Below, piece by piece: positions 26,322-62,893 of a stretch of DNA of 64,000 bases. This DNA comes from Rhodobacter sp. TJ_12. Its GTDB lineage: Bacteria; Pseudomonadota; Alphaproteobacteria; Rhodobacterales; Rhodobacteraceae. Made by a program: the position numbers and the translations under genes. The DNA lies in NCBI RefSeq assembly GCF_020023995.1, contig NZ_NRRD01000015.1, positions 1-64,000 on the forward strand. Reading direction: 5' to 3'. The first letter of the stretch is position 1, and every line of letters begins with the position of its first letter. The notes below the pieces were generated by a model, which had not been told where the DNA came from, did not search any database, and saw only the letters and a program-made list of their open reading frames with translations.

Positions 26322-26662
26322 CAGAGCACCTCCAGATCCTTGATCCGCATTTCGTCGCCGCCCTGCACCAATAGGCGCGCCCCGCCGCACCGCGGGCAGG
26401 TATCTAGGCGATGTTCGATTTCTACATTTTCTTCGCAGTCAAAGCACACCGCCTTGCCCGGAAGGTTGATAATTTCCAATGTCGCGCCTTGCGCAAGGGA
26501 GCCGTTCATCACCACGTCAAAGGCGAATTCCAGCGCCGGGATTTCCACCCCCGACATGCGGCCGATTTCCAGCCGCACCTTGGTGACGCGGGCAAAACCC
26601 TGCGTCTGTCCGGCCTCTTCGATGACGCTGCGAATGCCCTCGACAATCGACATTTCATGCAT
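26321..26662 (-). CDS. hypA: Hydrogenase nickel insertion protein HypA
   Basis: HypA, 113 residues. It starts [10 protein letters not shown], where His2 is the nickel ligand. The zinc site is formed by the two CxxC pairs CFDC and CPRC near residues 73-92. Works with HypB in nickel insertion. Overlaps hupK by 8 bases and abuts hypB. Confidence 0.95.
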
Positions 26663-29196: not shown

Positions 29197-29199
29197 GGT

Positions 29200-29616
29200 T
29201 CAGCCTTTCGCAGCGATGATATGGGAGGTGCGGGCGATGTAATCATCCCAATCGCGGATCTTCTCGATGCCGCCCAAAAGCTCCCCCTCGCGGAAAAAGA
29301 TGAAAGAGGGAGTTTTCAGCACGCGGGTTTCTTCGCGCAGGGTGGCCTCGATCGGATCGGCCACCACCGCACAATCGAAGCCGTTTTGAAAGGCTTGGCG
29401 CAGTTCCGGCAAAACGACCGCCGCATCGGGCGTTTCAAGGTTGCGCGCGGCATCACCGGGCACAAACAGGCAATGCACGCCGGGGCGACGGGTGAACTCG
29501 GCCAGATCCGAGCCGTTTTCCAGCCGGGGATAGCCAAATTCCTCGGTCAGCCGGGCGACCAGCGGGTGGATTTTGCCCGATTTGGGCGCGGTATCGGGCA
29601 TGGCAAAGTCGTGCAT
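29200..29616 (-). CDS. hupG: Hydrogenase assembly protein HupG
   Basis: HupG, 138 residues, belongs to the thioredoxin-like HyaE/HupG family but lacks a CxxC redox motif, as is usual for the family. It is thought to act as a chaperone for the Tat-exported small subunit. The start at 29616 (MHDFAMPDTA) is preferred; upstream in-frame codons lie inside hupF. Confidence 0.9.
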   Translation of the reverse strand: MHDFAMPDTAPKSGKIHPLVARLTEEFGYPRLENGSDLAEFTRRPGVHCLFVPGDAARNLETPDAAVVLPELRQAFQNGFDCAVVADPIEATLREETRVLKTPSFIFFREGELLGGIEKIRDWDDYIARTSHIIAAKG

Positions 29617-29623
29617 GGGAACC

Positions 29624-29944
29624 TCAGGCGGTGGTCTTGCCGGCATCAAGCGCGGCTTGCAGATGGGGCGGAAGCTCGGGGGTGCGGTTTTCCAGATCGG
29701 CGAAGGCATCGCCCAGATCGCCGCCTTCCATCAGGCTGCGCAGTCCCCCCAAAGCGGCCGAGATTTTCGCGGCGTCTTCGGCCGAAACCACCTCGCGCGC
29801 AGCCCCTAAAAAGGCCAAAACCCAATCGCCGGGTTGCGCCTCGGGGGTCAGCGACAGATCGATGATGCCGGGGGTGCCGTTTTCGATCACATCGCCGCGA
29901 ATACCGTCAACGGCGATCAGTTGCACGGGCACACCAACGCACAT
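29624..29944 (-). CDS. hupF: Hydrogenase maturation chaperone HupF (HypC family)
   Basis: HupF, 106 residues, begins [12 protein letters not shown], the HypC-family start with the conserved Cys2. It has a C-terminal extension of about 25 residues compared with HypC. In rhizobia HupF is dedicated to the uptake-hydrogenase large subunit and protects it at higher oxygen. Meets hupD at a shared base. Confidence 0.93.
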
Positions 29945-30576
29945 CAGGCGCGCACCTTCGCGGCACTGGGGAAGAAACGATGATCGCCCACCCGGCAGGC
30001 GTCATCTTCGGTCGGGCGGCCCTGTTCATAGACATGGCGCGACAACGAGGGGTCGACCAGATCGTTCGTGGGCGTGGCGCCCTCGGTGACGGTGATGCCC
30101 CAGCTTTGCAATTCGCGCACCGCCTCGGCTAGCGCATGGGGGATCTGCTCAGACACGGCGGGGCGCAGGCTGCCGCCGTAATCCTCAAGCTCAACTGGCT
30201 GGCAGCCGATCAGCGTCATATGTTCGGGGCAGTAGCCCATCAGTTGCGCCGTCGCGATCACATCTTGAAAGCCGGTCTGGTGCAGGCTCATTTTCTTGGC
30301 GCCCATGAAGGCGGGCACATCGTCATCGCGCATTGTCACCAAAGTGCCGGGATCAAGCCCGAAATCCACCGCATCAAAGACGATCAGCGCATCGGCTTTT
30401 TCGAGGAAGGGCAGCAGATAGAGCCCCTGCGTGCCGCCATCAAGCAGCTTGACGTTCTCGGGCAGCGCATAGCTTTGCGCCATCGTCTCGACACAGCGCA
30501 CCCCGAACCCTTCATCGGCCCACAGCACATTGCCGATCCCCAGCACAAGCACCCGCGCGGGTCTGATTTCTTGCAT
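29944..30576 (-). CDS. hupD: Uptake hydrogenase maturation protease HupD
   Basis: HupD, 210 residues, is the nickel-dependent endopeptidase that removes the C-terminal peptide of HupL once the Ni-Fe site is complete. It has the family opening [22 protein letters not shown] with the metal-binding Glu, and the aspartate in IVFDAVDFG. It is the first gene after the hupSLC unit, separated from it by a terminator-like hairpin. Confidence 0.94.
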
Positions 30577-30762
30577 GAGTCCCTCCCTGGAACCGTCTGC
30601 CGCGGCGCTTACGCGCCGAAATTCAGGCCGTGGGCCACACCCTCCCCGGCGCCACGCAAGGCGCAGCGATCATGCCGCCATCTTGGGGATGCGGCCTCTA
30701 TGAGCGGGAAAAGCGAGTCGCACCGGCCCCCTTTGGAAACATTGCTACCAAGTTAGCGCGAC

Positions 30763-30781
30763 AATTGGAAGCATGATTTCC
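30763..30781 (+). promoter_or_regulatory. Shared hup intergenic motif, copy 1
   Basis: AATTGGAAGCATGATTTCC contains the dyad GGAA-N7-TTCC. A near-identical element occurs upstream of hupS at 34706-34724 in opposite orientation, with 15 of 19 bases the same. It lies directly beyond the hupC terminator and about 190 bases upstream of hupD. A regulator-binding role is inferred. Confidence 0.45.
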
Positions 30782-30783
30782 AC

Positions 30784-30816
30784 AAAAAAGCCGGACGTGA
30801 AAGACTCACGCCCGGC
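30784..30816 (-). terminator. Terminator after hupC
   Basis: Read on the minus strand, GCCGGGCGTGA, a 5-base loop and TCACGTCCGGC form an 11-bp stem with one G-T pair, followed by six T residues. It sits 18 bases after the hupC stop and would end or reduce transcription of hupSLC before the accessory genes. Confidence 0.85.
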
Positions 30817-30834
30817 CCCAACCTGTTCCTCAGA

Positions 30835-31623
30835 TCACTCGATCCGGTCGTCCTTGAAGGTCCGATGGCCTGAAATCATAGTCGAAACCATCGATTGGCG
30901 GCTCATCACATCTTCGCGGATCGCGGCGTAGATATGGATGATCGCAAAGATCACGATCGACCACATGCCAAGGTGATGCAAGGTGTGCAGCCGCTGGCTG
31001 TTTTGCACCAGCCCCAGCACCCATCCAAACAGCGTATCGGGAAGGCTGCCCTGCCCCGCCCCCTCGGCATAAAGCGCCCAGCCGGTAATCATCATGAAGG
31101 TGATACCAAGCGTGATGAAGGTGAACATCGCCATATGTGCCAGAGGGTTGTGGCCGATGTATTTCTTCGGCTCTTCCTCAAGAAACATGTACCACTTCAG
31201 CTCGAAGATGAATTCCTTCCAGTAGCGCAGGTTGAAGATCGGCACATAGAACATCTGCCGGGCGTGGGTGTTGCCCACAAAAGCCCAGTAGATCCGCGCC
31301 AAGAACCCGATCGACAACACCGTGCCCGCCGCGAAATGGGCAAAACGCATGTAGCCCATCACGAACTGGTTCGTGGCTTCGGCAAATTCCATGCTCGGCA
31401 GCGGCTCTGCGATCAGATAGCCGGTCACGCACAGGATGGTGATGCACAGCGCATTGATCCAGTGCCAGATCCGCACCGGCGCCTCATACACGTAAACGGA
31501 TGTGCGGCGACGGATGCTTTCCAGGTCTTCAAGGGTGGCGTCGCCGGTCAGACGAGACGCCTCAAGCATCTCCTCCGGCGGCACCTTTGGTTCATAAATC
31601 CGATCCTTGGTGATCTTCCGCAT
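30835..31623 (-). CDS. hupC: Uptake hydrogenase cytochrome b subunit
   Basis: HupC, 262 residues, is the diheme membrane cytochrome b that anchors HupSL and passes electrons to ubiquinone. Four hydrophobic segments are visible (from about residue 60 onward). The conserved histidines occur in VRIWHWINALC, FAHFAAG, LHTLHHLGMW and IIHIYAAIRED. A long hydrophilic N-terminus precedes the first segment. It follows hupL by 11 bases and is the last gene of hupSLC. Confidence 0.95.
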   Translation of the reverse strand: MRKITKDRIYEPKVPPEEMLEASRLTGDATLEDLESIRRRTSVYVYEAPVRIWHWINALCITILCVTGYLIAEPLPSMEFAEATNQFVMGYMRFAHFAAGTVLSIGFLARIYWAFVGNTHARQMFYVPIFNLRYWKEFIFELKWYMFLEEEPKKYIGHNPLAHMAMFTFITLGITFMMITGWALYAEGAGQGSLPDTLFGWVLGLVQNSQRLHTLHHLGMWSIVIFAIIHIYAAIREDVMSRQSMVSTMISGHRTFKDDRIE

Positions 31624-31634
31624 GATGCCCCCCT

Positions 31635-33428
31635 TTACCGCACTTTGACGGTGGTCAGCGGGTCACCCTCGGGCGACATCACATGGGTCGAGCAGGCAAG
31701 GCAGGGATCGAAACTGTGCAGCGTGCGCAGAATTTCGACGGGCTCTTCGGGACGCTCCATCTTGGTGTCCAAAAGCGAGGCCTCAAAGGCACCGATATTG
31801 CCTTGGCTGTCCCGGGGCGAGCCGTTCCAAGTGGTCGGCACGACGCATTGATAATTCTCGATGCGCCCATCCTTGATACGAACCCAGTGGCCAAGCGCGC
31901 CGCGCGGCGCCTCGGTCATGCCCACGCCCTTGGCCTCTTTCGGCCAGGTTTTCGGGTCCCATTTCTCGACATTCGCGGTGGAGCTGTCACCGTTTTTGAT
32001 ATTGGTGATCAGCTTGTCGAAGAAATGCTTCTGCAAACGCCCGCAATACTCGGATTCAAGCGCCCGCGCCGCAGTGCGGCCCAGCGTCGAGAACAGCGCA
32101 TTCACCGGCAGGTCCATGGTGCGCAGCAGCCCGTCGACTTGGTTTTTGATGTCTTCGTGCCCCTTGGCATACCCCACGATGTAGCGCGCCAGCGGCCCGA
32201 CCTCCATCGCATGCCCGCGCCAGCGCGGCGCCTTGATCCAGGAATATTTCGCGCCCTCGTCGATTTCCTCGATATGGGTGCGGGTGCCTTTCAGGTTCGG
32301 GCCCAGTTCAAACTTGGGCGAGGTCTCCCCATCCCACGGATGCAGCCCCTTGCCCGGTTCGCCGTAGTCATACCACGAGTGATCGACGAATTCTTGGATC
32401 TGCTCGGGGTCGCGGGTATCGACATCATGCACCTCGTTGAGGTTGCCATTGATAATCGCACCGCGCGGCAGATGCAGTTGTTCGGGGCTGAAATCGTTCG
32501 GATTTTCAGGAATATCGCCATAGGCCAGACAGGCCCGCGACGACAGCCCGCCGCCGTAAAGCCAGTTCTTGTAGAAACCGCCAATCGCCACGACATCGGG
32601 CAGGTAGACGTTCTTGTTGAACTCGATGCAGCGGTCGATGATGGAGCTGACCATATTCAGCCGCTCCATATTGATCGCGCCCACCGCGCCCACGCCATGC
32701 ACGTTGATCGCGCAAGGCACGCCGCCCACCAACCAGTTCGGATGCGGGTTCTTGCCGCCAAAGATCGTGTGGACCTTGACCACTTCCTTTTGCAGATCCA
32801 GCGCTTCCAGATAGTGTGTCGTCGCCATCAGATCGGCTTCGGGCGGCAGCAGATAGGCCGGGTTGTCCCAATAGCCGTTCTTGAACAGCCCGAGCTGCCC
32901 GGATTCGACGAATTTCTTCAGCCGATTTTGCACGTCACGGAAATAGCCGGGGGACGAGAGCGGGTGGCTCGGGCTCACCATCTGCTGCAACTCAGACGTC
33001 GCCTTCGGGTCGGCGCGAAGGGCATTGACAGGATTCACCCAATCAAGCGCGTGCAGGTGGTAGAAGTGCACGATGTGGTCGTGAATCTGCAGGTTAAGCT
33101 GCATGATATTGCGGATCGCATTCGCATTGTCGGGAATGGTGATCCCCAAGGCATCCTCGACCGCGCGCACCGAGGTCAGCGCATGGGTGCCCGTGCAAAC
33201 CCCGCAGATACGCTCGGTAAAGGCCCAAGCATCGCGCGGATCGCGGCCTTTCAAGATGACTTCAAGGCCGCGCCACATGGTGCCGGTAGACACCGCATTG
33301 GTGATGATGCCTTCGTCGTTGACGTTCACTTCGCAACGCATATGGCCTTCGATCCGGGTGACCGGATCAACGACGACACGCTTGCCGGAATTGTCGAGGG
33401 TGAAGCCGTTCGGCGTTTGGGTCGTCAT
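31635..33428 (-). CDS. hupL: Uptake [NiFe] hydrogenase large subunit
   Basis: HupL, 597 residues, carries the Ni-Fe active site that splits H2 at the periplasmic face. The four cysteine ligands lie in [10 protein letters not shown] (73-82) and DPCLACSTH (574-582). A 15-residue tail (starting VMSPEGDP) follows H582 and is the substrate for HupD cleavage. The protein has no signal of its own and is exported with HupS. It follows hupS by 3 bases. Confidence 0.97.
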
Positions 33429-33431
33429 GGC

Positions 33432-34508
33432 TTACGCCTCCTCGTTCTTTTTCTGGGCACGTTTGAGCGCGGAGGCCGCGGCATGCACGGCCACGGCACC
33501 GCCCACCACGGCGGTGGTGGCAAAGCCGATTTGGTCCGCCGTCGCCTCGATCCCGAATTGCTTGATGCCGGTCACCCGCTCATAAAAGCCATTCTGATCC
33601 CAGAACCCGTCTTCCGAACAGCCAATACAGCCATGGCCCGATTGGATCGGGAAGCTGACGCCTTCGTTCCAACGCACGGTCGAACAGGCGTTATAGGTGG
33701 TCGGCCCTTTGCAGCCCATTTTGTAAAGGCAATAGCCTTTGCGCGCGGCATCATCGTCCCATTGCTCGACGAACTGGCCCGCGTCGAAATGCGGACGACG
33801 ATAGCATTTGTCGTGGATGCGCTGCGAATAGAACATTGCCGGCCGGCCTTGGCGGTCAAGCTCCGGCATCCGGTCGAAGGTCAGCATATAGGTGATGACG
33901 CCGGTCATCACCTCGGCAATCGGCGGGCAGCCGGGCACCTTGATGATCGGCTTATCGGTGATGACCTTATGCACCGGGGTGGCTTGGGTCGGGTTCGGCG
34001 CGGCGGCCTGCACGCAGCCGTAAGAGGCACAGGCCCCCCAACTGATGATCGCCTTGGCGTCTTTCGCAGCATGGCGCAGCTTTTCAACGAACGGCTTGCC
34101 GCCGGTGATGCAGAACATCCCGTCTTCATTCAGCGGCGGGTTGCCCTCGACGGCCAAGATGTAATTGCCTTTGTATTTGGCGATCGTATCCTCAAAGGCA
34201 GCTTCGGCGGCGTGACCCGCAGCGGCCATCAGCGTGTCGTCATAATCGAGCGAAATCATCGACAGAACGACATCTTTTGCCAACGGATGCGCCGAGCGGA
34301 TAAAGCTTTCCGAGCAACAGGTGCATTCCAGACCATGCACCCAGATCACCGGGGTGCGCGGCTTCGTTTCCATCGCATGGGCGATTTTCGGCACGAAGCT
34401 GGGGCCAAGGCCCAGCGCCGCAGCGGTCAGCGAACAATATTTCATGAAGCTGCGGCGGGTGATCCCCTGACGCCGCATGACGTCATAGAAGGTTTCGATT
34501 TGCGACAA
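33432..34508 (-). CDS. hupS: Uptake [NiFe] hydrogenase small subunit
   Basis: HupS, 358 residues, holds three iron-sulfur clusters that conduct electrons from HupL to HupC. The twin-arginine signal [21 protein letters not shown] is cleaved near IAHAMETKP. Cluster ligands lie in [26 protein letters not shown] and the later C-rich segments. A C-terminal hydrophobic anchor is present. I set the start at the TTG at 34508 (residues [14 protein letters not shown] follow). It sits four bases after a GGGAGGG site and gives the same length as R. capsulatus HupS; no ATG lies nearby. Confidence 0.95.
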
Positions 34509-34620
34509 TTGTCCCTCCCTTGCCTGGGGTCGGCCAGATGTCCCAGGCGCGCCCTTGGTAAGCTTCCGATTGTGCCGATCAGCGGCCATCGGACCACCCG
34601 GAACTGACAAAATGTCGCAG

Positions 34621-34675
34621 AAAAAATTATATTTTAAAATCAATGTCGTGCGATTTGACTGCCGGAAATTTCCGG
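34621..34675 (-). promoter_or_regulatory. hupS: hupSLC upstream control region
   Basis: An A/T tract (34621-34637) leads into AATCAATGTCGTG, one mismatch from the IHF consensus WATCAA-N4-TTR. A perfect 14-bp palindrome CCGGAAATTTCCGG lies at 34662-34675, about 155-165 bases upstream of the hupS start. In R. capsulatus IHF and HupR bind upstream of hupS. The TTG-N5-CAA HupR site reported there was not found here, so the palindrome or the GGAA-N7-TTCC motif are the candidates. No convincing -35/-10 pair was seen. Confidence 0.5.
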
Positions 34676-34705
34676 AAGACGTATGATCAATTATCTTTCC
34701 AAGAT

Positions 34706-34724
34706 GGAAACTATTCTTCCAATT
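34706..34724 (-). promoter_or_regulatory. Shared hup intergenic motif, copy 2
   Basis: On the minus strand the sequence is AATTGGAAGAATAGTTTCC, matching copy 1 at 30763-30781 at 15 of 19 positions with the dyad GGAA-N7-TTCC kept. It overlaps the last codons of hypF and lies about 200 bases upstream of hupS. Confidence 0.45.
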
Positions 34725-36945
34725 TTGCCACTGCCACAAGGGCTTGCCCCAGCGCCAAAGCGCCGTCATTTGCCGGAAGAGGCTGATGCTTCAATATGGC
34801 GCAGCCCGCCAGCTTTTCAACCATAAGCTGTAACATCAGCGCATTCTGGAACACCCCGCCCGACAGGGCGACCGCCTGCGCCGTGCCTTGAGCGATCAGA
34901 GTGCGCGCCCGTGCCGCAAAGGCCTCGGCCAGCGCGTCGTGCACGGCAAAGGCCAAGCCAGCCGGATCGCCACCCTGCGCCAGCGCCTGAAAAAGCGGGG
35001 CGGGATCAATCTCTTCGCCCGCCCCGGACAAGCGCAGCCGCGGGGCTTGCCCGGCCTCGGCCCGGCCCGCCAGCGCCTCCAGCCGCATCGCCGCCTCGCC
35101 CTCGTAACTTTGGCGGTCCGGGCACAGCCCCAGACAGGCCGCCACCGCATCGAAAAGGCGCCCGGCACTGGAAGAGGGCGGCGCATTCAGCCCCTTGGCC
35201 ACCATCGCGCGGGCGATCTCGCGCGGGGCGTTCGGAAACAGCGCATCCGCCCAGCCCGACAGGCCCGCCGCATCCAGCCGCACCAGCGCATTGCGCCACG
35301 GCTCCATCTGCGCGCGATCCCCGCCAATCAGCGGCGCGGGTTTAAGCCAGGCGCAGCGCGCAAACCCCGCGTAATCGCCCAGCAGCAACTCGCCGCCCCA
35401 AACGGTGCCATCGGGGCCAAGCCCCAACCCATCCAGAATAATACCCACCACCTTGCCGCCCTCGCGCGGCCACTGGTTTTCGCCCATCACGGCGGCCAAA
35501 TGCGCGTGATGGTGTTGCACCTCAATGAGCCGGAGCCCTTCGCGCGCGGCCCGCTCTGCCCCGTGGCGGCTGGCGCGGAAATCGGGGTGCAGATCCACCG
35601 CCACCGCTTGCGGCGCATGGTCAAACAGCGCCGCGTAATCGGCATCGGCCTGCACAAAGGCCTCCCATGTCAGCGCCTCATCCAACGCGCCCAGATGGTG
35701 GCCCAAAAGCGCCTGCCCGTTCTTGATCAGGCACAGCGCCGCCTTCATTTGCCCGCCATAGGCCACGACCTGCGGCGCGTCCTCAAACCCCGGCGGCAGC
35801 GGCAAGGTGCCCGGCACTTGCCCGCGCGCGCGGCGCAACACCATCGGCGGGTCAACACGCAGCACGCTGTCATCCAGCCGCCGCGCAATCGTCCGGTCAT
35901 GCATCACAAAAGCATCGGCAAAGGGGGCCAGTTTCTCGCGCGCCTCGTCATTGCCCACCACCTGCGGTTCGCCCGACAAATTGCCCGAGGTCATTACCAA
36001 CACGCCCTGAAAGGCGTCCAGCAGCAGATGATGCAGGGGCGTATAGGGCAACATCACGCCCAATTCCGCCATGCCGGGCGCGACGCTGGCGGGCAAAGCG
36101 TCCCGGGCCGGCATCAGCACGATGGGGGCCGCAGGCTCTTTCAGGGCCGCAAGCGCCGCGGGCGACACGGTCACAATCCGGTCCAGATCGGCTTCGCGGC
36201 ACATCAGGGCAAAGGGCTTGGCGGGGCGGCGCTTGCGGGCGCGCAATTCGGCCACGGCACGCGGATTGGCGGCATCGCAGGCCAGATGAAAGCCCCCCAG
36301 CCCCTTGATCGCCAGAACCTCGCCCGCTTGCAGCCGCGCCACCGCCAAAGCAATGGCATCGCCCGGAACCTCGGCCCCGCCCACTTCCAGCCACAGGCGC
36401 GGCCCGCAAATCGGGCAGGCAATCGGCTGGGCATGAAAGCGCCGGTCGCCCGGGTTTTCATATTCGGCCCGGCAATCGGGGCACATCTCAAAGGGCGCCA
36501 TCGTCGTGCGCGCCCGGTCATAGGGCAGGCTTTGCAAGATCGTGAAGCGCGGCCCGCAATGGGTGCAGTTGGTGAAGGCATACCCTCGCCGCCGCCCCTC
36601 CCCCCGAATTTCAGCCAAACACTCCGGGCAGGTGGCGGCATCGGGGGTCACCCGTGTCTCGGCCCCCGGCCCGCCCGAGGCGATGATTTCGAAGCCTTTC
36701 GGCGGGGCTTCGAAAACCGCGACCGTTACCTCAACCGCATCGACACGCGCCAGCGGCGGTGCCTCGGCCTTTAGCGCGGCAACCAGATCATCCGGTGCGC
36801 CCAGCACGCGGATCAGCACGCCCTCGGCATCGTTTGACACCGTGCCCCGCAACCCCTGCGCCTGCGCCAGTTGCCACACGAAGGGGCGAAACCCCACGCC
36901 CTGCACCTGTCCGCGCACACGGATCTGCCAGCCTTGCTGTTTCAT
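34711..36945 (-). CDS. hypF: Carbamoyltransferase HypF
   Basis: HypF, 744 residues, makes carbamoyl-adenylate from carbamoyl phosphate and transfers it to HypE, the first step of cyanide ligand synthesis. Domains in order: acylphosphatase ([16 protein letters not shown]), two zinc fingers with CPEC/CTHC and CPDC/CPIC pairs (about 105-190), YrdC-like domain ([23 protein letters not shown]), and the Kae1-like domain ([29 protein letters not shown]). All are intact. It lies between hupV and hupS as in R. capsulatus. Confidence 0.96.
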
Positions 36946-54019: not shown

Positions 54020-54838
54020 ATGACGCTTCCGCTTCTGGGCACCGCATTGCTTTATGATCATTTCGCAACCCTGCGCCCTTGGATCTGTGATGCGGGCCGG
54101 GCCATCGAGATTCAGGATTTCGTCACCCCCAACCTTGGCGAGACCGAAACCGCCGATCTGATCGCCGCGTGGCAGCGGGTGCTGCCCGCGCAAACCGGGC
54201 CACGCGGTATCCACGGGCCGTTCTTCGGGCTGGATCTGGGCAACCCCGACCGGGAAATTCGCGCGATCATCACCCGCCGCTTCCTGTGGGGGCTTGAGAT
54301 CGCCGAGGCGCTTGCGGCCACGCATATGGTGGTGCATTCGCCCTTCAGCTATTGGCTGCATCTCAACCGCGCGAATTACCCCCATATCGAACCCGCGATT
54401 TTTGATGCCGCCGCCGAATGCCTTGCCCCCGTGCTGGCCCGTGCCGCCGATGTGGGCTGCACCTTGATGCTGGAAAACATCGATGACACGGACCCAAGCG
54501 CCCGGGTGCGGTTGGTGCAGACGCTCGATCATCCGAACCTGCGCGTGTCGCTGGACACCGGGCATGCCGAACTGGCGCATGGGCAATATCGGGCACCGCC
54601 GGTGGTGGATTTCATCGCCGCGGCAGGCGATCTTTTGGGCCATGTCCATTTGCAAGATGCCGATGGCTACGCCGATCGGCACTGGCACCCGGGGGATGGC
54701 CGCATTCCGTGGCGGCCGGTTTTCACGGCACTGGCTGAATACGCCCAAAATCCGCGCCTCATTCTAGAGGTGCGCGGCGATCATGCCCGCCTGCCCGAAA
54801 CGGTGGCGCGGCTGGAAACGCTGGGGCTTGCCCGATAG
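54020..54838 (+). CDS. Sugar phosphate isomerase/epimerase-like TIM barrel
   Basis: A 272-residue protein of the xylose isomerase-like TIM-barrel (AP endonuclease family 2) superfamily. Metal-binding residues are visible in MVVHSPFSYW, LMLENIDDTDP, VSLDTGHAELAHG and GHVHLQDADGYADRHWHPGDG. The last signature (HLxD then HxxPGxG) is typical of sugar epimerases. The substrate is not predictable. The start at 54020 follows AAAGGA; upstream codons are shadows. Confidence 0.85.
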   Translation: MTLPLLGTALLYDHFATLRPWICDAGRAIEIQDFVTPNLGETETADLIAAWQRVLPAQTGPRGIHGPFFGLDLGNPDREIRAIITRRFLWGLEIAEALAATHMVVHSPFSYWLHLNRANYPHIEPAIFDAAAECLAPVLARAADVGCTLMLENIDDTDPSARVRLVQTLDHPNLRVSLDTGHAELAHGQYRAPPVVDFIAAAGDLLGHVHLQDADGYADRHWHPGDGRIPWRPVFTALAEYAQNPRLILEVRGDHARLPETVARLETLGLAR

Positions 54839-54940
54839 GCGCACGGGTTGGCACGCAACTTCCGCGCGACACGAGGCAACCGGGCGTGGTAGCCTTGTTG
54901 GTGGAAGGACCGATTCATTTTATCGAGTGGGGGGCTACGC

Positions 54941-55189
54941 ATGAGCCACTTTCGTAATTCGGTTGATCAGATCGTCGACCGCTACGCGCGCCTACACAAA
55001 ATTGACCCAATGTCATTCGACGAAGACTGCGTGCGCCCCGCGCTGCGGCTCAAGGATGCACAGGACATTGCGGGCCTTGACCGCACCGAATGCCTGATCG
55101 TGGAATTTCACCGCGATCAATTGATTTCAGATCGCAAGATGATCGATCTGCTGCGCCGCCATCAAAAAGAAGTCACCGGTCGGCATTAA
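54941..55189 (+). CDS. Conserved-looking hypothetical protein, 82 residues
   Basis: A small, charged, helical protein without membrane segments or Cys pairs that I cannot assign. It has a clear start (GTGGGGGG site before ATG). About 80 bases upstream is TTGGCACG-N4-TTCCGC (54848-54865). Its TGGCACG is a perfect sigma54 -24 element, but the -12 element has CC instead of GC, so sigma54 control is only a possibility. Confidence 0.65.
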   Translation: MSHFRNSVDQIVDRYARLHKIDPMSFDEDCVRPALRLKDAQDIAGLDRTECLIVEFHRDQLISDRKMIDLLRRHQKEVTGRH

Positions 55190-55301
55190 GGCCCGCCGGT
55201 TTTTGGCCCCGGTTTCCTTTCGGGCTGGGGGAAAGTGGCCATAAGGCTGAAAAAACCATGTGATCGCTTGTTGTCGGGGCCCGTCAGGCCTATGCCGGGG
55301 C

Positions 55302-55673
55302 ATGCGTATTCTTGACAATATCATCAGTGATCGCGGCTCCAAATATGCCGTTTCGGGCGGGCCTTGCGGCTCACCGCAAGAGGCGCGCGCCTTCGTTCAG
55401 GCGCTGTGCAAAACCAAGAAATTCGCCAAGGCCACGCATCATTCTTGGGCCTTGCTGACGCCAGAAGCCCCGCTGAAGAATGACGATGGCGAGACGGGCG
55501 CGGGCATGGTGATCTTGCGGATGCTGGAACGCGAGGGGCTGCACGATCATCTGATCGTGGTGACGCGCTGGTTCGGGGGCAAGCATCTGGGCGGCGACCG
55601 TTTCCGCCATGTGCAAGACGCCGTGCGGATCTACCTTGATGCCCTAAAAGCAGAGGCCCCCGATCACGGGTAA
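55302..55673 (+). CDS. IMPACT/YigZ-family protein
   Basis: A 123-residue protein matching the N-terminal domain of the YigZ/IMPACT (UPF0029) family: KFAKATHHSWAL, NDDGETGAGM and VVTRWFGGKHLGGDRFRHVQDA. YigZ proteins usually have a second domain of about 80 residues, absent here. The molecular role is unclear; eukaryotic IMPACT modulates translation control. The start at 55302 has a weak ribosome-binding site. Confidence 0.85.
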   Translation: MRILDNIISDRGSKYAVSGGPCGSPQEARAFVQALCKTKKFAKATHHSWALLTPEAPLKNDDGETGAGMVILRMLEREGLHDHLIVVTRWFGGKHLGGDRFRHVQDAVRIYLDALKAEAPDHG

Positions 55674-55734
55674 AGTGACGATGCAGGGCCACCCCATCGC
55701 ACGACAGGATGGCCCAATCCCCAAGAAACCGCCC

Positions 55735-57165
55735 CTAGCCGCCGAAATGCAGGCTCTTGACCTCTTGGTAATCTTCAAGGCCCAACAGGCCGCCCTCGCG
55801 CCCATTGCCCGAGGCTTTGTAGCCGCCAAAGGGCGTGCCCCAGCCCAGCCCGCCGCCATTGATATGCACCGCCCCTGCGCGCAGCCGCCGGGCCACGCGC
55901 TCGGCGCGCGCGGGATCACCGGTTTGCAGATAGGCGGCAAGGCCATATTCGGTGGCATTGGCCAGCGCGATCATTTCCGCTTCATCCGCCGCAGGCAGGA
56001 TCGACAGCACCGGGCCGAAGATTTCCTGCTTGGCAATCGTCATCTCGGGGGTGACATCGGCAAAGACCGTGGGGCGCGCATACCAGCCGCGCGGGCACTC
56101 ATCGGGCTTCCCCGGACCGCCCGCCACCAGCCGCGCGCCTTCGGCGATGCCCGCCGCGATCAGTGCCTGCACCCGCTCCCATTGGATCTGGTCATAAAGC
56201 GGGCCAAGGTGGTCACCCTCTTGCTTGGGATCGCCCACTTGCGTGTCTTGCGCGGCGGCGGTGGCGATCTCCACCACCTCGTCATAGCAGGCGCGCTCCA
56301 CGATCAAGCGGGTGGGCGCGTCACACGATTGCCCGGTGTTCAGGAAACACTCGCTCACCGCATAGCGCACCCGATCCGCCAATGCCGCGCCGCAATCGGC
56401 GAACACCAGATTGGGGGATTTGCCCCCCAGTTCCAGTGTCACGCGCTTGACCGTATCGGCGGCGGATTTCGACACCGAAATCCCCGCCCGGGTCGAGCCG
56501 GTGAACGACACCATCGCAAGGCCCGGATGGCGCGCCAAAGCATCGCCCACCTCGGGCCCGGTGCCATGGATCAGCGCAAAGGCCCCCGGCGGCACCCCCG
56601 CCTCGTGCAGGATTTCCGCGTAAATCTGCGCCGATAGCGGCGTAAACTCGGACGGTTTCAAGATCGCCGGGCAGCCGGCGGCCAGCGCGGGCAACACCTT
56701 GAGCGCGATCTGGTTGATCGGCCAGTTCCACGGCGTGATCAGCCCGACCGGCCCGATCGGCTCGCGCGTCATCTTATCGCCGTTGGAAAGCTGCCAGCGT
56801 TCCTCTTGCCCCTCCAGCGCCTCGATAAAGCCATCGGCATGGCCGATGCCCGCCTCGGCCTGCATCTCGCGCGCCATGGTGATGGGCGCCCCCATTTCGC
56901 GGCACATCGCTTGGGCCAAGTCTTCCTTGCGCGCGGCGGTCAGTTCCCGAATACGGCGCAACAGCGCCAAACGGTCCGCCTTGGGCCACAGCCCAAAGCT
57001 TTCAAAAGCGTGGGTGGCGGCCTTGACCGCCCGGTCCACATCGGCGGCGCTGCCCAGCGCCACCGTGCCGATCAGCGCATCTTCGGCGGGGTCCATGATC
57101 GGCATGGTCTCGCCCCCGGCGGGGCTTACCCATGCGCCATCGATGTAAAAACGATCTGCAGTCAT
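55735..57165 (-). CDS. Aldehyde dehydrogenase, probable DMSP-aldehyde dehydrogenase
   Basis: A 476-residue NAD(P)-dependent aldehyde dehydrogenase. It has GLITPWNWPINQ, the general-base Glu in LELGGKSPNLVF and the catalytic Cys in NTGQSCDAPTRL near residue 280. It is the last gene of the mmtN operon. In the methionine-methylation route to DMSP an aldehyde dehydrogenase makes the final oxidation of DMSP-aldehyde, so this assignment comes from context. The start at 57165 (MTADRFYIDG) follows AAAGGACC. Confidence 0.88.
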   Translation of the reverse strand: MTADRFYIDGAWVSPAGGETMPIMDPAEDALIGTVALGSAADVDRAVKAATHAFESFGLWPKADRLALLRRIRELTAARKEDLAQAMCREMGAPITMAREMQAEAGIGHADGFIEALEGQEERWQLSNGDKMTREPIGPVGLITPWNWPINQIALKVLPALAAGCPAILKPSEFTPLSAQIYAEILHEAGVPPGAFALIHGTGPEVGDALARHPGLAMVSFTGSTRAGISVSKSAADTVKRVTLELGGKSPNLVFADCGAALADRVRYAVSECFLNTGQSCDAPTRLIVERACYDEVVEIATAAAQDTQVGDPKQEGDHLGPLYDQIQWERVQALIAAGIAEGARLVAGGPGKPDECPRGWYARPTVFADVTPEMTIAKQEIFGPVLSILPAADEAEMIALANATEYGLAAYLQTGDPARAERVARRLRAGAVHINGGGLGWGTPFGGYKASGNGREGGLLGLEDYQEVKSLHFGG

Positions 57166-57233
57166 CGCAGGGTCCTTTTGTTCCGCCGCAAACGGCAGCG
57201 GGTCATCTGTGTTTTGCAAGCTGCACGGGGTGC

Positions 57234-58151
57234 TTAGACCGGGCGACCGCGGATCGTGCAGACCTCATGATAGATTGCCGCCTCGCGGTCGGCATCCAGC
57301 ATTTGCTGCGCCTCGCTGGCCGAGATAGGCTCTGCCCCCGCCGGGTCACGGTAAAAGGCGCAGCGGAAATCGTGGTCCAGCCCGGTGCCCCCCAGCGCCT
57401 TTTCCAACGCGACGAAGAAAGAAATATCCGTCCCGGCATGCTGGCGCACGATCTGACCTTGCAGCTTTTCAGGCGTGTAGCCATTGGCCTCGAACATATC
57501 AAACAGCACCGGAACGCCAACCCGCGCCCCGAAATTAAGGATCACATCGGCCTTTGGTGCACGCGCGCGCAGACGCCGCAGCAATGCCTCGTTCAGGCCC
57601 AAACCAACGGCATTGAAGGGGAATTCCTCGAATTCGGTCCACGGGTAGTAATGCGCGATATGGTCGTCTTCGCGCACATCCGCCCCCTCGCCCAATTCGG
57701 TGCGGTGCAGTTTGCGAAAGGCATCAAAGCGCGGATCGCCCGGGCAGGCGACCTGTGGCAGACAGCCGATCACCGCATCCGTTTGCGCAATTTCTTCCTG
57801 CGCTTCGGGCGTGTCGATCAGGCTGACCGCCCCATGGACCGGGTGGAACAGATGCGCCTGTTCCGGCGCAAGGCTTTGCACATTGCGTTCGGCCAGATCG
57901 GCCATGCGCGGGTCAAGGTCACTACCCGAAACCCGCGCGGCGCCGCACAGCCGCAACAGGAAAGCCGCATTCGCGCCGGTGCCGATCCCCACCTCATAGA
58001 CACGCTTTCCGGCAAGATCGGCCTTTTCCAAGGCGCGCTGAAAAGTCTGCGTCCAAGGATCGCTTGGGTCAAAGGCGAATTCGGGGGCATGGGGGGTGGC
58101 GTCGCTCTCCAGCTCGTCAATTTGCGGTGCGGTCAAGTCTGAATGGCTCAT
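57234..58151 (-). CDS. mmtN: Methionine S-methyltransferase (MmtN)
   Basis: A 305-residue SAM-dependent methyltransferase. The SAM motif is YEVGIGTGANAAFLL at 52-66, with SDLD at 77-80. Three segments match the methyltransferase domain of plant methionine S-methyltransferase: AVIGCLPQV (126-134), VGLGLNEALLRRL (182-194) and the block VILNFGARVG to TDIS (203-244). Bacterial MmtN enzymes convert Met to S-methylmethionine, the first committed step of DMSP synthesis by the methionine-methylation route. Adjacent decarboxylase, aminotransferase and aldehyde dehydrogenase genes supply the remaining steps. The start at 58151 follows GGAAGAG. Confidence 0.87.
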   Translation of the reverse strand: MSHSDLTAPQIDELESDATPHAPEFAFDPSDPWTQTFQRALEKADLAGKRVYEVGIGTGANAAFLLRLCGAARVSGSDLDPRMADLAERNVQSLAPEQAHLFHPVHGAVSLIDTPEAQEEIAQTDAVIGCLPQVACPGDPRFDAFRKLHRTELGEGADVREDDHIAHYYPWTEFEEFPFNAVGLGLNEALLRRLRARAPKADVILNFGARVGVPVLFDMFEANGYTPEKLQGQIVRQHAGTDISFFVALEKALGGTGLDHDFRCAFYRDPAGAEPISASEAQQMLDADREAAIYHEVCTIRGRPV

Positions 58152-58202
58152 GTCTCTTCCGTGAAAATAGCAAGGGCGCCGCCGCAATCGGCGGCCCCCA
58201 TA

Positions 58203-59456
58203 TCAATCCAGCAGCAGCACGCTGCGTGCATCGCCGCGCAGGCAATGATCCGAGCGCATCGAGGCGGCATAGCCGCCCGCATTGATCAGCGCGATCACAT
58301 CGCCCTCTTGCGGGTCGGGCAACGGGTGATCTTCGGCCCATTTGTCGAGCGCCTCGTTGACATTGCCCACAAGAGTGAACGGGCTGGGCGCCGCGTCGCG
58401 CGGGGCGGCGGGCACCGGCTCGCAGGGCAGGCCGTAAAAGGCAGGCTCCATCGCAAGGTTGAACCCGGCATCAAGGCCCAGAAATTCCACCGCCTTGCGG
58501 CGTTCGCGATAGGTGACAGAGGCAAGCAGCACCCCCGCATCCTTGATCAGAAAATCGCCCGGCTCGACCGAAACGGTCAGCCCTGCGCCGCCATAGGCCT
58601 GCGCGATAGTCTTGGCCCAAAGATCAAGATCCAGCGGTGCATCGCTGGCGCGATGCGGCACGCCCAGCCCGCCGCCGATGTTAATATCCGTCAACCCGGG
58701 CAATTGCGCGATGAAGGCGCGGCTCGCCTCCAAAACAGCGGCGAATTGGGTCATTTCCCGATCCAGATAGCCGCAGCCCGCATGGAAATGCAGCCGGGTG
58801 ATGGTCAACCCGTGCTTGCGCGCAATCTCGATCGCTTCGGGCAGCCGGTCCAGATAAATCCCGAATTTCGTGGCCGCCGTGCCGCTATATTGCAGCATCT
58901 CGCTGCCGCCATAACCAATGCCACGGTCGGGGTTGATGCGCAGCCCGACTTTGCGCCCGGGGCAGATCTGCCCAAAGCGGTCCAGCGCGGCCAGCGAGTC
59001 GAAATTGATCGCGATCCCCTCGAACCGAGCCAGCGTTTCGATATCGGCGCGGCTGAGCGAGGTGCCGGTGAAAGAGATATCTTCTTCACGAAAGCCGCAA
59101 GACAGCGCATGCAGCAATTCTTCGGGCGAGCAGATATCGGCCCCGCACAGCCCCTGCCCCGCAAGGTAAGACAAAAGCTGCGGCGTGCGATTGGCCTTGA
59201 TCGCGTAATAAACCCGGTGATCCAGCCCGGCCCGGTCCAAGGCGCGGTGCAATTGGCCCAGCTTTTCAGTGACGCGGGGCGCGCGGATCACATAGGCGGG
59301 CGTGCCGATCTTGCGCGCCAAAGCCTCCAGATCGGCGGTGCCAAGATGCAGATGCCCACCCCGCAGGGCCAAATCGTCGCGTTGCCACCATGGGGCCGTC
59401 GCGGCGGCGGGGGCCGCAGCCGCAGTCTTGGGTAACTCTACCTCTGTCTCAGACAT
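58203..59456 (-). CDS. PLP decarboxylase, probable S-methylmethionine decarboxylase
   Basis: A 417-residue fold-type III PLP enzyme of the diaminopimelate/ornithine decarboxylase family. K87 in YYAIKANRTP would bind PLP. LHFHAGCGYLD, NIGGGLGVPHR and the C-terminal NAGGYAASMRSDHCLRGDA are visible. lysA is normally elsewhere, and this copy lies inside the mmtN operon. S-methylmethionine decarboxylation to DMSP-amine is therefore the likely role (inference). The first 25 residues are Ala/Pro-rich and variable. It overlaps the TusA-like gene by 8 bases. Confidence 0.85.
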   Translation of the reverse strand: MSETEVELPKTAAAAPAAATAPWWQRDDLALRGGHLHLGTADLEALARKIGTPAYVIRAPRVTEKLGQLHRALDRAGLDHRVYYAIKANRTPQLLSYLAGQGLCGADICSPEELLHALSCGFREEDISFTGTSLSRADIETLARFEGIAINFDSLAALDRFGQICPGRKVGLRINPDRGIGYGGSEMLQYSGTAATKFGIYLDRLPEAIEIARKHGLTITRLHFHAGCGYLDREMTQFAAVLEASRAFIAQLPGLTDINIGGGLGVPHRASDAPLDLDLWAKTIAQAYGGAGLTVSVEPGDFLIKDAGVLLASVTYRERRKAVEFLGLDAGFNLAMEPAFYGLPCEPVPAAPRDAAPSPFTLVGNVNEALDKWAEDHPLPDPQEGDVIALINAGGYAASMRSDHCLRGDARSVLLLD

Positions 59457-59718
59457 GTCGAGCCGTCCCTTGCGGCGCCGATCGCGTCTTGGCCACGGGG
59501 CCTTCGGGTGCTTCGGCGCTCGAATAGACCAGCCGCACATCTGTGCTTTCGCCGGTCAGGCACGCGGCGACCCGGTCGGGCGCGGTGCAGGCGCGATCAA
59601 CCAAAACATCCAGCGGCAAACCACAATCTTGCCGGCCGACGACCGCTTGTTTGATCCGCAGCACCGTCAGGGGGGCCGAAAGGCCACGGCAATCGATGAA
59701 GCTTGTCGGTTGGCTCAT
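59449..59718 (-). CDS. TusA-like protein without the CPxP cysteine
   Basis: An 89-residue protein with the TusA/SirA sulfur-carrier pattern FIDCRGLSAPLTVLRIKQAV. In TusA proteins the position after GL-x holds the persulfide-forming Cys of CPxP; here it is Ala15-Pro16-Leu17-Thr18. C10, five residues earlier, and further Cys around 32, 44 and 54 remain. Embedded between the aminotransferase and decarboxylase genes with overlap. No function in DMSP synthesis is known to me. It may be a regulatory or scaffolding protein. The start at 59718 has AAGGAG. Confidence 0.8.
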   Translation of the reverse strand: MSQPTSFIDCRGLSAPLTVLRIKQAVVGRQDCGLPLDVLVDRACTAPDRVAACLTGESTDVRLVYSSAEAPEGPVAKTRSAPQGTARHV

Positions 59719-59806
59719 GTTTCGTCTCCTTCGTTCTCTGGGCGGCTTTGCCGCTTTTAGGGTCGTCAGCATGTCCGGGCACCGTGCCCCGCCCGAAGGC
59801 CGGGTG

Positions 59807-61225
59807 TTAGAGCTTGCCCGCTTTAAGATCGGCCTCGGCCCGGTTCAGGGCGTCGGCAAGAATGGCAACGATCCGGTCGATATCGGCGCGTTCGATGATC
59901 AGCGGCGGCGACAGGATGCACAGGTTTTCATAGGGCCGCACCAAGAGCCCCGCCTCTTGGCAATAGCTGTCCACCCGCTGCGCGAGCGCCATATTCGCCG
60001 CCGTCGGGCCGATTTCTTCGCCGGTCCAGCATTCCACGCAGGCCATCAGATGATCGCCGCGCACCGTGTAAACGATATCTTCTCCGCGCAATTCGCGCAG
60101 CTTTTCGATGAAGTAAGGGCCGACATCGCGCACATGGCCGCAGATATCCTCGCGCTCCATGATCTCGATATTGGCCAGCGCCACCGCACAGGCGACGGGA
60201 TGGCCCGAATAGGTAAACCCATTCGAGAACACAGGCTTGTCGGCAGGCGCATTCTTGGCCAGCGCCGAGGCGATCCGGTCTGAGACCAACACCGCCCCCA
60301 AGGGCTGATAGCCCGACGACAGCCCTTTGGCGGTGATGACCATGTCCGGCTCCAGCCCGAAGCGCACCTCCGAGGCAAAGAAATGCCCCAACCGCCCGAA
60401 GCCGGTCACCACCTCATCGGAAATATAAAGGATGCCGTATTTGTGGCACAGATCGCAGGTGGCCTTTTGGTAGCCTTCGGGGGGCGTCAGCACCCCACCC
60501 GAGGCCATGATCGGCTCGGCGATGAAACAGGCGATCTTGTCGGGGCCGATGCGCTTGATTTCGGCTTCCATCTCGGACAGCAATTCTTGCAGCTTTTCTT
60601 CCGCCGAGAGGTTGGAGCGATCCGGGTCATAGCCCGGGCTCGACAAATGATGCACGAAGCCCGCTTCGTAGTGAAACAGCGTGCGATCCGCCGATTTGCC
60701 CGACAGCGATTGCGTCAGATAGGTGCCGCCGTGATAGGCATTGATCCGCGACAGCACATGGCGCCGCTCTGGCTGGCCCTGCGCCGCGAAATGGTAATGC
60801 GCGATGCGAATGGCGGATTCCACCGCGGTCGAGCCGCAGGTGGTGAAATGCACCCGGTTCAGATCGCCCGGCGACAGCGAAGCGAGTTTTTCCGCCAGCC
60901 GCGCGGCCGGTTCGCTCGAAACATCGCCAAAGGGGGTGTAATAGGCCATTTTGCGGGCCTGATCGGCCATTGCCTCGGCCAATTCCTCGCGCCCGTAGCC
61001 CAAGGTCATGCACCACATGCCACCAATGGCATCCAGATAGCTTTTGCCTTCGCTGTCGCGCACCCGCACGCCCTTGGCCGTGCTGATGACCAGCGCATCT
61101 TGCGTGCCAAGGCTGCTCAGATCGGCCCAAGGGTGCAGCACATGGCGCGCATCGGCTTGCGGGATCGATGCGGGCGCCGTGGTGCCGGTTTCGGTCTTCG
61201 GGGCGTTTTCAGCCACTAACTCCAT
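59807..61225 (-). CDS. Class III aminotransferase, probable DMSP-amine transaminase
   Basis: A 472-residue PLP aminotransferase of the omega-amine:pyruvate class. It has TTCGSTAVESAIRIAHYH, the Asp in LYISDEVVTGFGRLG and the PLP lysine in TAKGLSSGYQPLGA near residue 300. First gene of the operon, followed by tusA-like, decarboxylase, mmtN and aldehyde dehydrogenase genes on the same strand. Conversion of DMSP-amine to DMSP-aldehyde is the fitting reaction (inference). The ATG at 61225 follows AGGAGG at a spacing of 10 bases. Confidence 0.88.
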   Translation of the reverse strand: MELVAENAPKTETGTTAPASIPQADARHVLHPWADLSSLGTQDALVISTAKGVRVRDSEGKSYLDAIGGMWCMTLGYGREELAEAMADQARKMAYYTPFGDVSSEPAARLAEKLASLSPGDLNRVHFTTCGSTAVESAIRIAHYHFAAQGQPERRHVLSRINAYHGGTYLTQSLSGKSADRTLFHYEAGFVHHLSSPGYDPDRSNLSAEEKLQELLSEMEAEIKRIGPDKIACFIAEPIMASGGVLTPPEGYQKATCDLCHKYGILYISDEVVTGFGRLGHFFASEVRFGLEPDMVITAKGLSSGYQPLGAVLVSDRIASALAKNAPADKPVFSNGFTYSGHPVACAVALANIEIMEREDICGHVRDVGPYFIEKLRELRGEDIVYTVRGDHLMACVECWTGEEIGPTAANMALAQRVDSYCQEAGLLVRPYENLCILSPPLIIERADIDRIVAILADALNRAEADLKAGKL

Positions 61226-61729
61226 GAAGGTTGCGCCTCCTGGTTTCGCGCCACGCGCGATATGGGTGATTTACGGCCCCAGTCGGGCCTGAACGGATAA
61301 AAACGGCCAGCCGGCGCGGGAACGCGCCAGCCCTGTCACGGCTTGATGACCTTTGGTCGAAAACCGATCCAGACGGAGCCGCCACCGAGAAAGGCGTCAC
61401 TTATGTCGGGCCTCTGCGCCCCTGCGCTCTCCTCGGATTCTCACCCTATACTTGCCATAATCGCCCCCCCAACTAAACCCGAGGGCGCCAAGTTTTCCAA
61501 AATGCGACACAATACCCCACAAAAGCGTCGCTTTTGCCCATTCGATAGGCATGATGCGCCGCCTGCAGGCAGTCCGCTATCAAACGCCTGAAAATCCGAT
61601 CAAAAGACTGGGACGAGGCGGCGCGCAGGGTTGACGCCCTTGCGCGCCAGCCGCGCACAAGCTCTCCCAAACGGCGCCGAGCAAAGCCCGCCCCAGTTTT
61701 CCAGTCAAACCGCGCGGCAAGCAGCCAAA
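61226..61729 (-). promoter_or_regulatory. Leader/promoter region of the mmtN operon
   Basis: 504 bases without a gene between phnM and the aminotransferase. On the minus strand TTGGGG-N16-TATAGG (about 61450-61480) is a weak promoter candidate. The following roughly 200 bases have structure: CCGAG paired with CTCGG around GCGC-AGGG-GCGC (about 61385-61435). Nearer the gene is a GC hairpin GGCTGGCGCG-TTCC-CGCGCCGGCT (61308-61331), followed five bases later by TTTTT. A structured leader with attenuation is possible, but I could not match a known SAM, SAH or glycine riboswitch. CAAAAGC-GTC-GCTTTTG at 61520-61536 is another dyad. Confidence 0.4.
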
Positions 61730-62893
61730 CTAGCCGACGCGCTGGCCTTTGACCCAGACCCCGCGCAGCGCCGCCGTGCGCCCGATCCGATGCGCGCGAA
61801 TAAGATCGGCGCGCAAACCCGGTTCGATCCGGCCACGATCGCTTAGCCCGACCGCTTGCGCCGGGGCATCGGTCACCGTGGCCAGCCCACGCGCCACATC
61901 GCCCCAGATATCGCCCAGCATCAGCGCCGCCGACAGCAGCGCCGAGGGCACATAGTCCGACGACAAAATGTCCAAAAGCCCTGCCTCGGCTAGCTCGTGC
62001 GCGGCGACATTGCCCGAATGCGAGCCACCGCGAATAAGGTTCGGCGCACCCATCATCACCGCAATGCCCGCCCGATGGCAGGCTTGGGCGGCCTCAAACG
62101 TCGTGGGGAATTCGGCAAATTGCACGCCATGGCGTTTCGAGGTTTCGACCTGTTCGGCGGTCGTATCATCATGGCTGGCCAGCACCGCGCCATATCGCGC
62201 CGCTGCCGCCACCGCGCCCGCCTCATGCGCCGCGCCCAGCCGCGCGCGCAGGGCGCGCTGCGCCGCCACATGGTCCTCGAACCCTTCGGGGCTTAGCGCA
62301 TGCTTGCCGATCACATAGTCGCGCAGCTTGTCTAGATCGCGAAATTGCCGCTCGCCGGGGGTGTGATCCATCAAGCTGACAATGCCCACCCGATCTTCCG
62401 GCCCGAATTTGGCCAGTTCTTCCAGCAATGTCTCCGAACAGGTTTCGGCCCGCAAATGCAGATAATGCGAGATACGGAACCCCGCACGCGCGCGCATTTC
62501 CAGAATTTCATCGGCCAGCGCGCGCGCATATTCGCGGTAGTCCCCGCGCGCGCCAGAGGCCCCGATGGACCCCACCCGCAAGGCATCGAACACCGTCGTA
62601 ATCCCGACCGAGCATAATTCGGCATCATGGGCGATGATTGCATCGGCATGAGGCCAGTCGACCTTGGGCCGCGGCTCGATATGGCGTTCCAGATTGTCGG
62701 TGTGCAATTCAATCAAACCCGGCGCCACAAGATCGCCGCCGCAATCCTCGGCCCCGGCTGGCACTTGGGTGCCCTCTCGAATTTCGGCAATAATCCCGCC
62801 CCGCAGCACCAGCGCGCCGGGCATCACCCGATCGGGCAGCACAAGGTTTGCATTGGCCAAAATGGTCTCGGTCTGGACCGGCATGTCTTTCAT
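61730..62893 (-). CDS. phnM: Phosphonate metabolism protein PhnM
   Basis: PhnM, 387 residues, an amidohydrolase-superfamily enzyme. It removes pyrophosphate from alpha-D-ribose-1-methylphosphonate-5-triphosphate in the C-P lyase pathway. Metal ligands are visible in GLIELHTDNLERHIEPRP, which has a characteristic HTDN in place of HxH. Others lie in VSLMDHTPGERQF and VLASHDDTTAEQVE. The start at 62893 (MKDMPVQTE) is preferred; MPVQTE nine bases on is an alternative. It is divergent from the DUF1045 gene, and the C-P lyase core genes are not in the window. Confidence 0.93.
   Translation of the reverse strand: MKDMPVQTETILANANLVLPDRVMPGALVLRGGIIAEIREGTQVPAGAEDCGGDLVAPGLIELHTDNLERHIEPRPKVDWPHADAIIAHDAELCSVGITTVFDALRVGSIGASGARGDYREYARALADEILEMRARAGFRISHYLHLRAETCSETLLEELAKFGPEDRVGIVSLMDHTPGERQFRDLDKLRDYVIGKHALSPEGFEDHVAAQRALRARLGAAHEAGAVAAAARYGAVLASHDDTTAEQVETSKRHGVQFAEFPTTFEAAQACHRAGIAVMMGAPNLIRGGSHSGNVAAHELAEAGLLDILSSDYVPSALLSAALMLGDIWGDVARGLATVTDAPAQAVGLSDRGRIEPGLRADLIRAHRIGRTAALRGVWVKGQRVG

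Follow-up and report, generated by a model that had tools for sequence, protein, structure and literature searches.

The mmtN gene cluster of Rhodobacter sp. TJ_12

The window analyzed here, a stretch of 64,000 nucleotides of Rhodobacter sp. TJ_12 that belongs to contig 15 of a 3.58 Mb genome, carries between positions 55735 and 61225 five closely packed open reading frames (ORFs) on the minus strand, as judged from the ORF list and Pfam. In gene order, they encode a class III aminotransferase (59807-61225), a small TusA-like protein of 89 residues (59449-59718), a fold-III pyridoxal phosphate (PLP) decarboxylase (58203-59456), the methionine S-methyltransferase MmtN (57234-58151), and an aldehyde dehydrogenase (55735-57165). 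Intergenic gaps measure 88, 51, and 68 bases, while the remaining junction is an 8-base overlap in which the stop of the small ORF runs past the start of the decarboxylase gene. The start of the small ORF at 59718 was picked by its ribosome-binding site and by conservation; an in-frame ATG at 59772 is a possible alternative. An earlier note on this DNA had described a five-gene cluster supplying the four steps of dimethylsulfoniopropionate (DMSP) synthesis. ORFs, strand, spacing, and Pfam assignments bear out this cluster and its four enzyme genes; the fifth gene, the small ORF, had been left unexplained.

The methyltransferase matches Pfam Methyltransf_25 (31 bits), and a sequence search of the PDB returned a single match, 7vvv, at 453 bits. 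The MmtN of Roseovarius indicus B108 has 305 residues and was crystallized as the K141A/K143A/K146A variant (PMC9135737), and 7vvv is taken to be this enzyme because it has the same length and alanine at those three aligned positions. Identity between the window methyltransferase and this enzyme reaches 68.6% (199 of 290 aligned residues), above the >50% mutual identity reported for Group I MmtN members (PMC9135737). In the MmtN tree, built without the Rhodovulum protein because of its interrupted frame, the window and R. indicus enzymes fall within one fork of five rows (82/89, not starred), and among the relatives found the enzyme of Rhodobacter aestuarii is the nearest, at 79% identity. Judged by its sequence, the window methyltransferase is a member of Group I MmtN, and the identification as MmtN made in the earlier note held up both in its identity to the R. 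indicus enzyme and in the phylogeny.

The residues listed for all MmtN, namely the GxGxG motif, the S-adenosylmethionine (SAM)-binding Asp69, Ser101, Leu102, and Cys121, plus the methionine-binding Arg132 (PMC9135737), are kept in the window as GIGTG, D78, S110, L111, C130, and R141, and the ion-pocket Pro169 and Arg183 as P178 and R192. The Arg132 position itself differs in three of the 14 aligned MmtN proteins (His in L010, Ala in L015, and Leu in L019). Two methionine-contacting residues are replaced in the window, Glu127 by Cys136 (57744-57746) and Glu250 by Asp259, and in the published enzyme the E127A, R132A, and E250A variants kept >50% activity with a Michaelis constant (KM) for methionine raised about 8-13-fold (PMC9135737); the two replacements and the rise in KM weigh against the DMSP reading of the operon. 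The Glu250-to-Asp change is seen in other MmtN, and positions 127 and 250 are reported to vary as Glu or Asp and are not among the features of all MmtN (PMC9135737). Cys136 falls outside this published range, and cysteine occupies the position in both Rhodobacter MmtN proteins aligned, those of the window and R. aestuarii. Since E127A kept more than half of its activity, Glu127 is not treated as defining, and the activity retained by the three variants makes the window MmtN a likely active methionine S-methyltransferase whose affinity for methionine may differ.

MmtN was found in two of 18 genomes of the genus Rhodobacter and, in a draw of 394 genomes of the family (393 genera), only in the window's own genome. 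The scan of genome contigs yielded 19 MmtN loci and that of plasmids two records. These loci comprise two gene sets, type A (the set of the window) and type B, which one branch of the MmtN tree separates (76/91, not starred); Group I clusters have likewise been sorted into two sets, one resembling Novosphingobium BW1 and the other Streptomyces mobaraensis (PMC9135737). Type A is represented by eight other loci: R. aestuarii (L003), Pseudoruegeria, Mangrovicoccus, a plasmid of the shallow-sea vent bacterium Rhodovulum sp. P5 (L024), a plasmid of Rhizobium lusitanum (L025), and three actinobacterial genomes (Actinacidiphila cocklensis and two of its family). All eight hold the aminotransferase, the decarboxylase, and MmtN, and the same five genes stand in the same order in R. 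aestuarii and Rhodovulum sp. P5. On Rhodovulum plasmid pRGUI01, mmtN (6001-6914 of L024) gave a two-piece match annotated as hypothetical proteins, which means that the deposited sequence breaks its reading frame. A match in two pieces was also obtained for the aminotransferase on the R. lusitanum plasmid (6015-7372 of L025), and polyketide synthase (PKS) genes follow that cluster.

Type B comprises loci of ten Thalassospira, three Novosphingobium, one Rhizobiaceae, one Jiella, and one uncultured Rhodobacteraceae (L005-L018, L020, and L033). Its gene set consists of a class I aminotransferase and a 2-hydroxyacid dehydrogenase (both in 16/16 loci), a class II aldolase (15/16), and a BetI-type TetR regulator; the uncultured Rhodobacteraceae locus holds only the aminotransferase and the dehydrogenase of this set. 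No orthologue of the window decarboxylase occurs in the fetched stretches of type B.

Among the enzymes downstream of MmtN in the proposed route, the aminotransferase has 280 bits to Aminotran_3, 667 bits to NCBIfam NF005447 (cut-off 618), and 68-90% identity across the eight other type A loci. The decarboxylase matches Orn_Arg_deC_N (113 bits) and Orn_DAP_Arg_deC (51 bits). An assignment as LysA was considered and rejected, because the score to TIGR01048 (220.7 bits) lies below the cut-off of 297.9, a distinct LysA-like protein, 31% identical to the operon enzyme, is encoded by another gene of the genome, and the C-E-x-x-D segment that marks LysA reads NEALD in the window protein and three type A relatives and CETGD in the LysA-like protein. 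The operon enzyme is a putative S-methylmethionine (SMM) decarboxylase. The aldehyde dehydrogenase (Aldedh, 491 bits) has BADH as its best NCBIfam match, at 398.7 bits and below the cut-off of 668.6, and is 85% identical to its counterpart in R. aestuarii and 88% identical over 435 residues to that in Rhodovulum sp. P5.

DMSP is a marine osmolyte. In the proposed pathway, MmtN would methylate methionine with SAM to give SMM, the PLP enzyme would decarboxylate SMM to DMSP-amine, the aminotransferase would convert this amine into DMSP-aldehyde, and the dehydrogenase would oxidize the aldehyde to DMSP. Support for the first step comes from the close kinship of MmtN with an enzyme whose structure has been solved and whose activity has been assayed, and the protein families together with a gene set of the S. 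mobaraensis type point to the other three. One point against this reading of the operon is that the dehydrogenase is not a fixed part of the set: within the stretches fetched, only two of the eight other type A loci show an orthologue of the window enzyme, and of the remaining six, that of Mangrovicoccus stops soon after mmtN. S-methylation, decarboxylation, transamination, and oxidation constitute one established bacterial DMSP pathway, and in a related Burkholderia pathway transaminase and dehydrogenase mutants still made the product (PMC7496086), which indicates that other enzymes can stand in at these two steps. Genes linked to mmtN are described as ones that 'likely encode' the downstream enzymes, and all tested bacteria having them made DMSP (PMC9135737). 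The caution of the earlier note, that the downstream enzymes are mostly assigned by context, is therefore fair for the window operon and too modest for the cluster type. Its reading as DMSP synthesis genes agrees with the four-enzyme kit and with the same five-gene set in R. aestuarii and Rhodovulum sp. P5, and the operon very probably makes DMSP from methionine.

The small TusA-like protein

The small gene lies upstream of mmtN in all 19 loci from the scan of genome contigs, in cluster types A and B alike, and on both plasmid records with MmtN. The weakest of the database loci is L015 (E 0.003 over 19 residues), and the R. lusitanum protein was identified from its location together with its motif (E 0.001 over 29 residues); a tblastn search of plasmids at E 0.01 with the small protein matched Rhodovulum only. 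When profiles of both proteins were run on 572 genomes (the family draw of 394, 29 Thalassospira, and 149 Novosphingobium), MmtN was found in 17 (one, 12, and four, respectively), and the small protein reached at least 88 bits in those same 17. Two further matches at E 0.001, both of 21 bits, came from one MmtN-positive and one MmtN-negative Thalassospira. Two features of this sample weaken the association: many of the 17 genomes are closely related to one another and several were themselves sources of the profiles, and the larger draws scored part of the first-look candidates (e.g., 5/13 and 14/36), so that absences hold within that limit. The informative part is the absence of the small protein, within the same limit and at the same score, from the 555 genomes without MmtN, together with its presence beside mmtN in genomes outside the profile set, namely two Novosphingobium (G577 and G587) and at least two of the Thalassospira (12 genomes versus 10 loci).

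A second tie leads to the decarboxylase. Among 297 Streptomycetaceae genomes searched for MmtN, the three that bear it all carry the small domain as the N-terminus of the decarboxylase. A candidate MmtN fusion in genome G598 was discarded, as its translated ORF of 1067 residues contains MmtN without the decarboxylase frame. The 8-base overlap between the small gene and the decarboxylase gene recurs in all six unfused type A loci (the window, L003, L004, L021, L024, and L025). A decarboxylase orthologue, at 61% identity or more, exists in seven of 19 genomes tested; in the 12 type B genomes there is none, the best matches being 28-34% identical, and the small protein is kept. Because these 12 genomes retain it without the orthologue, the small protein is linked primarily to MmtN, and to the decarboxylase only in clusters that have that enzyme. 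We are confident that it belongs to the MmtN system.

The small gene is under purifying selection. The pairwise ratio of nonsynonymous to synonymous substitution rates (dN/dS) is 0.07-0.27 in 23 of 25 pairs of relatives; of the other two pairs, one has 0.03 with near-saturated dS and one gave no value. Alignment A1, which contains 16 of the 20 small-protein sequences (L007, L012, L018, and L020 were omitted as near copies), has ten invariant columns, including the cysteine of a D/N-C-x-G-L motif and a second cysteine. The first of these is invariant in the 16 rows and in all 20 sequences, and the R. lusitanum protein, outside A1, has the first cysteine and lacks the second. The cysteine of a CPxP motif marks TusA sulfurtransferases. 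At its position, none of the 16 rows has cysteine and the window reads APLT, while two TusA proteins elsewhere in the same genome carry CPLP.

Similarity to the TusA family (PF01206) is concentrated in an N-terminal segment around D-x-x-G-L and L-R-x-K/I-x-A, and several results argue for caution about this kinship. The Pfam match covers the first half of the protein at 19.0 bits (E 0.0013), below the cut-off of 28.6; six of 16 family members match, the best at E 0.00066; and the hhalign comparison with TusA gives 81% over 31 columns. Two AlphaFold models predict a strand-helix-strand-helix-strand core at middling confidence (72.8 and 78.6), and a fold search with them against the PDB gave no match at E 0.001 or better. 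An NCBIfam search returned YedF, at E 0.052 and for two of 16 members, and a profile search of PDB sequences only a MutS2 fragment (E 0.76). Since models of middling confidence found no significant fold match, the relation to TusA is drawn from sequence. The small protein is probably TusA-derived and devoid of the sulfur-carrying CPxP cysteine, differing from the family in this residue, in its score below the Pfam cut-off, and in its likeness over the first half only. The word 'TusA' is absent from the main text of PMC9135737, and a TusA-like protein accompanying MmtN has no mention in the literature searched, which did not cover the founding papers of 2019 and their figures, where the gene may be named.

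Possible roles of the small protein

We propose tentatively that the small protein is a dedicated, non-sulfurtransferase partner of MmtN, which would either bring the next enzyme to it or activate it, with SMM being passed on. A docking or activating partner fits because the link with MmtN is constant and the domain is fused to the enzyme presumed to consume SMM. A broader version, in which this TusA-derived protein is a general component of MmtN-route DMSP synthesis, needed by Group I MmtN in the cell and tethering MmtN to the next SMM enzyme, is somewhat more doubtful. MmtN assayed alone showed millimolar KM values (PMC9135737), and if the broader version is true, the requirement for the small protein might help explain them.

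For the small protein, the main rivals to a partner of MmtN are a decarboxylase subunit and a sulfur carrier with a moved cysteine. The first of these would make it mainly a subunit of the decarboxylase, and the fusion in three of three actinobacterial genomes and the recurrent 8-base overlap speak in its favor, just as a fusion partner that is the decarboxylase and not MmtN tells against our proposal. Yet in the 12 type B genomes the small gene stays upstream of mmtN with only those 28-34% identical decarboxylase matches, so we regard this role as rather unlikely. Less likely again is that the protein still carries sulfur, the D-C-x-G-L cysteine having replaced that of CPxP; the former is strictly invariant and present even in R. 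lusitanum, but the latter is another residue in 16/16 rows while the genome's own two TusA proteins read CPLP, and none of the proposed pathway steps would seem to need sulfur transfer. That the ORF is a leader or regulatory element with a functionless product might be suggested by its shortness and its place directly upstream of an enzyme gene, but is hardly credible given its in-frame fusion to an enzyme and dN/dS values far below 1 for 24 of the 25 pairs, the remaining pair being without a value.

A different alternative concerns the end product, and holds that DMSP is merely an intermediate on the way to a larger sulfonium metabolite, an idea put forward for mmtN clusters linked to nonribosomal peptide synthetases (NRPS). 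An NRPS-linked subgroup does exist within Group I (PMC9135737), and the related R. lusitanum cluster adjoins PKS genes. However, no assembly-line gene lies beside the window operon (a statement about its flanks, the rest of the genome not having been searched for NRPS or PKS), and the dehydrogenase is the last gene of the set in R. aestuarii and Rhodovulum, making this a very unlikely reading compared with DMSP as the end product.

The Rhodobacter group includes well-studied laboratory organisms, and these results place MmtN-type DMSP synthesis genes in Rhodobacter. Gene content, MmtN kinship, co-occurrence, fusion, and purifying selection were all computed here, and the window operon is a further example of an already known type of DMSP gene set. 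If the small protein is necessary, it would supply a component so far missing from a pathway in which the first enzyme was studied by itself, and would serve to mark MmtN-type clusters. Furthermore, the 12 type B genomes without a decarboxylase orthologue raise the question of how SMM becomes DMSP in them; these bacteria may transaminate SMM first and follow a different route.

Genomic context and comparison with known systems

Strand and spacing suggest that the five genes form one transcription unit, which a promoter and terminator scan of both strands (55200-61800) neither proves nor excludes: promoter-like sites numbered one versus 1.7 expected by chance, and terminator-like sites 11 versus 6.5 expected (standard deviation 2.8). 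A terminator-like hairpin, called by this consensus scan only, lies in the leader at 61309-61332 on the minus strand, preceding the first start codon by 83 bases. Comparison of five type A leaders revealed little conservation beyond the start region, and no known RNA family came near its gathering score in 54500-62500, the best being Atu_C3 with 22.4 of 100 bits. By Pfam, a UPF0029 gene on the opposite strand follows the operon and an amidohydrolase gene (Amidohydro_3, 61733-62893, same strand), presumably PhnM-like, precedes it. Elsewhere in the window, 22521-36945 is a hydrogenase region with Pfam matches to the NiFe hydrogenase large subunit, HypD, and HypF.

Compared with the Group I enzyme of R. 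indicus (PDB 7vvv, 7vvw, and 7vvx), the window MmtN keeps the SAM-binding and ion-pocket residues and Arg132 and differs in having Cys for Glu127 and Asp for Glu250. Clusters of the Novosphingobium/Thalassospira type resemble the window in pairing MmtN with a TusA-like gene upstream, but the other window genes are replaced there by those of type B, which encode a class I aminotransferase, 2-hydroxyacid dehydrogenase, class II aldolase, and BetI-type TetR regulator. A parallel in gene content is the DMSP assembly line of S. mobaraensis (Liao and Seebeck 2019), which consists of a methyltransferase, a decarboxylase, a transaminase, and a dehydrogenase (PMC7496086, PMC9135737); the window likewise links decarboxylase, transaminase, and dehydrogenase genes to mmtN. 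This comparison was made through the three actinobacterial relatives, which have the TusA-like domain fused to the decarboxylase and show, within the stretches fetched, no dehydrogenase orthologous to that of the window, while their methyltransferase, decarboxylase, and transaminase are 53-72% identical to those of the window.

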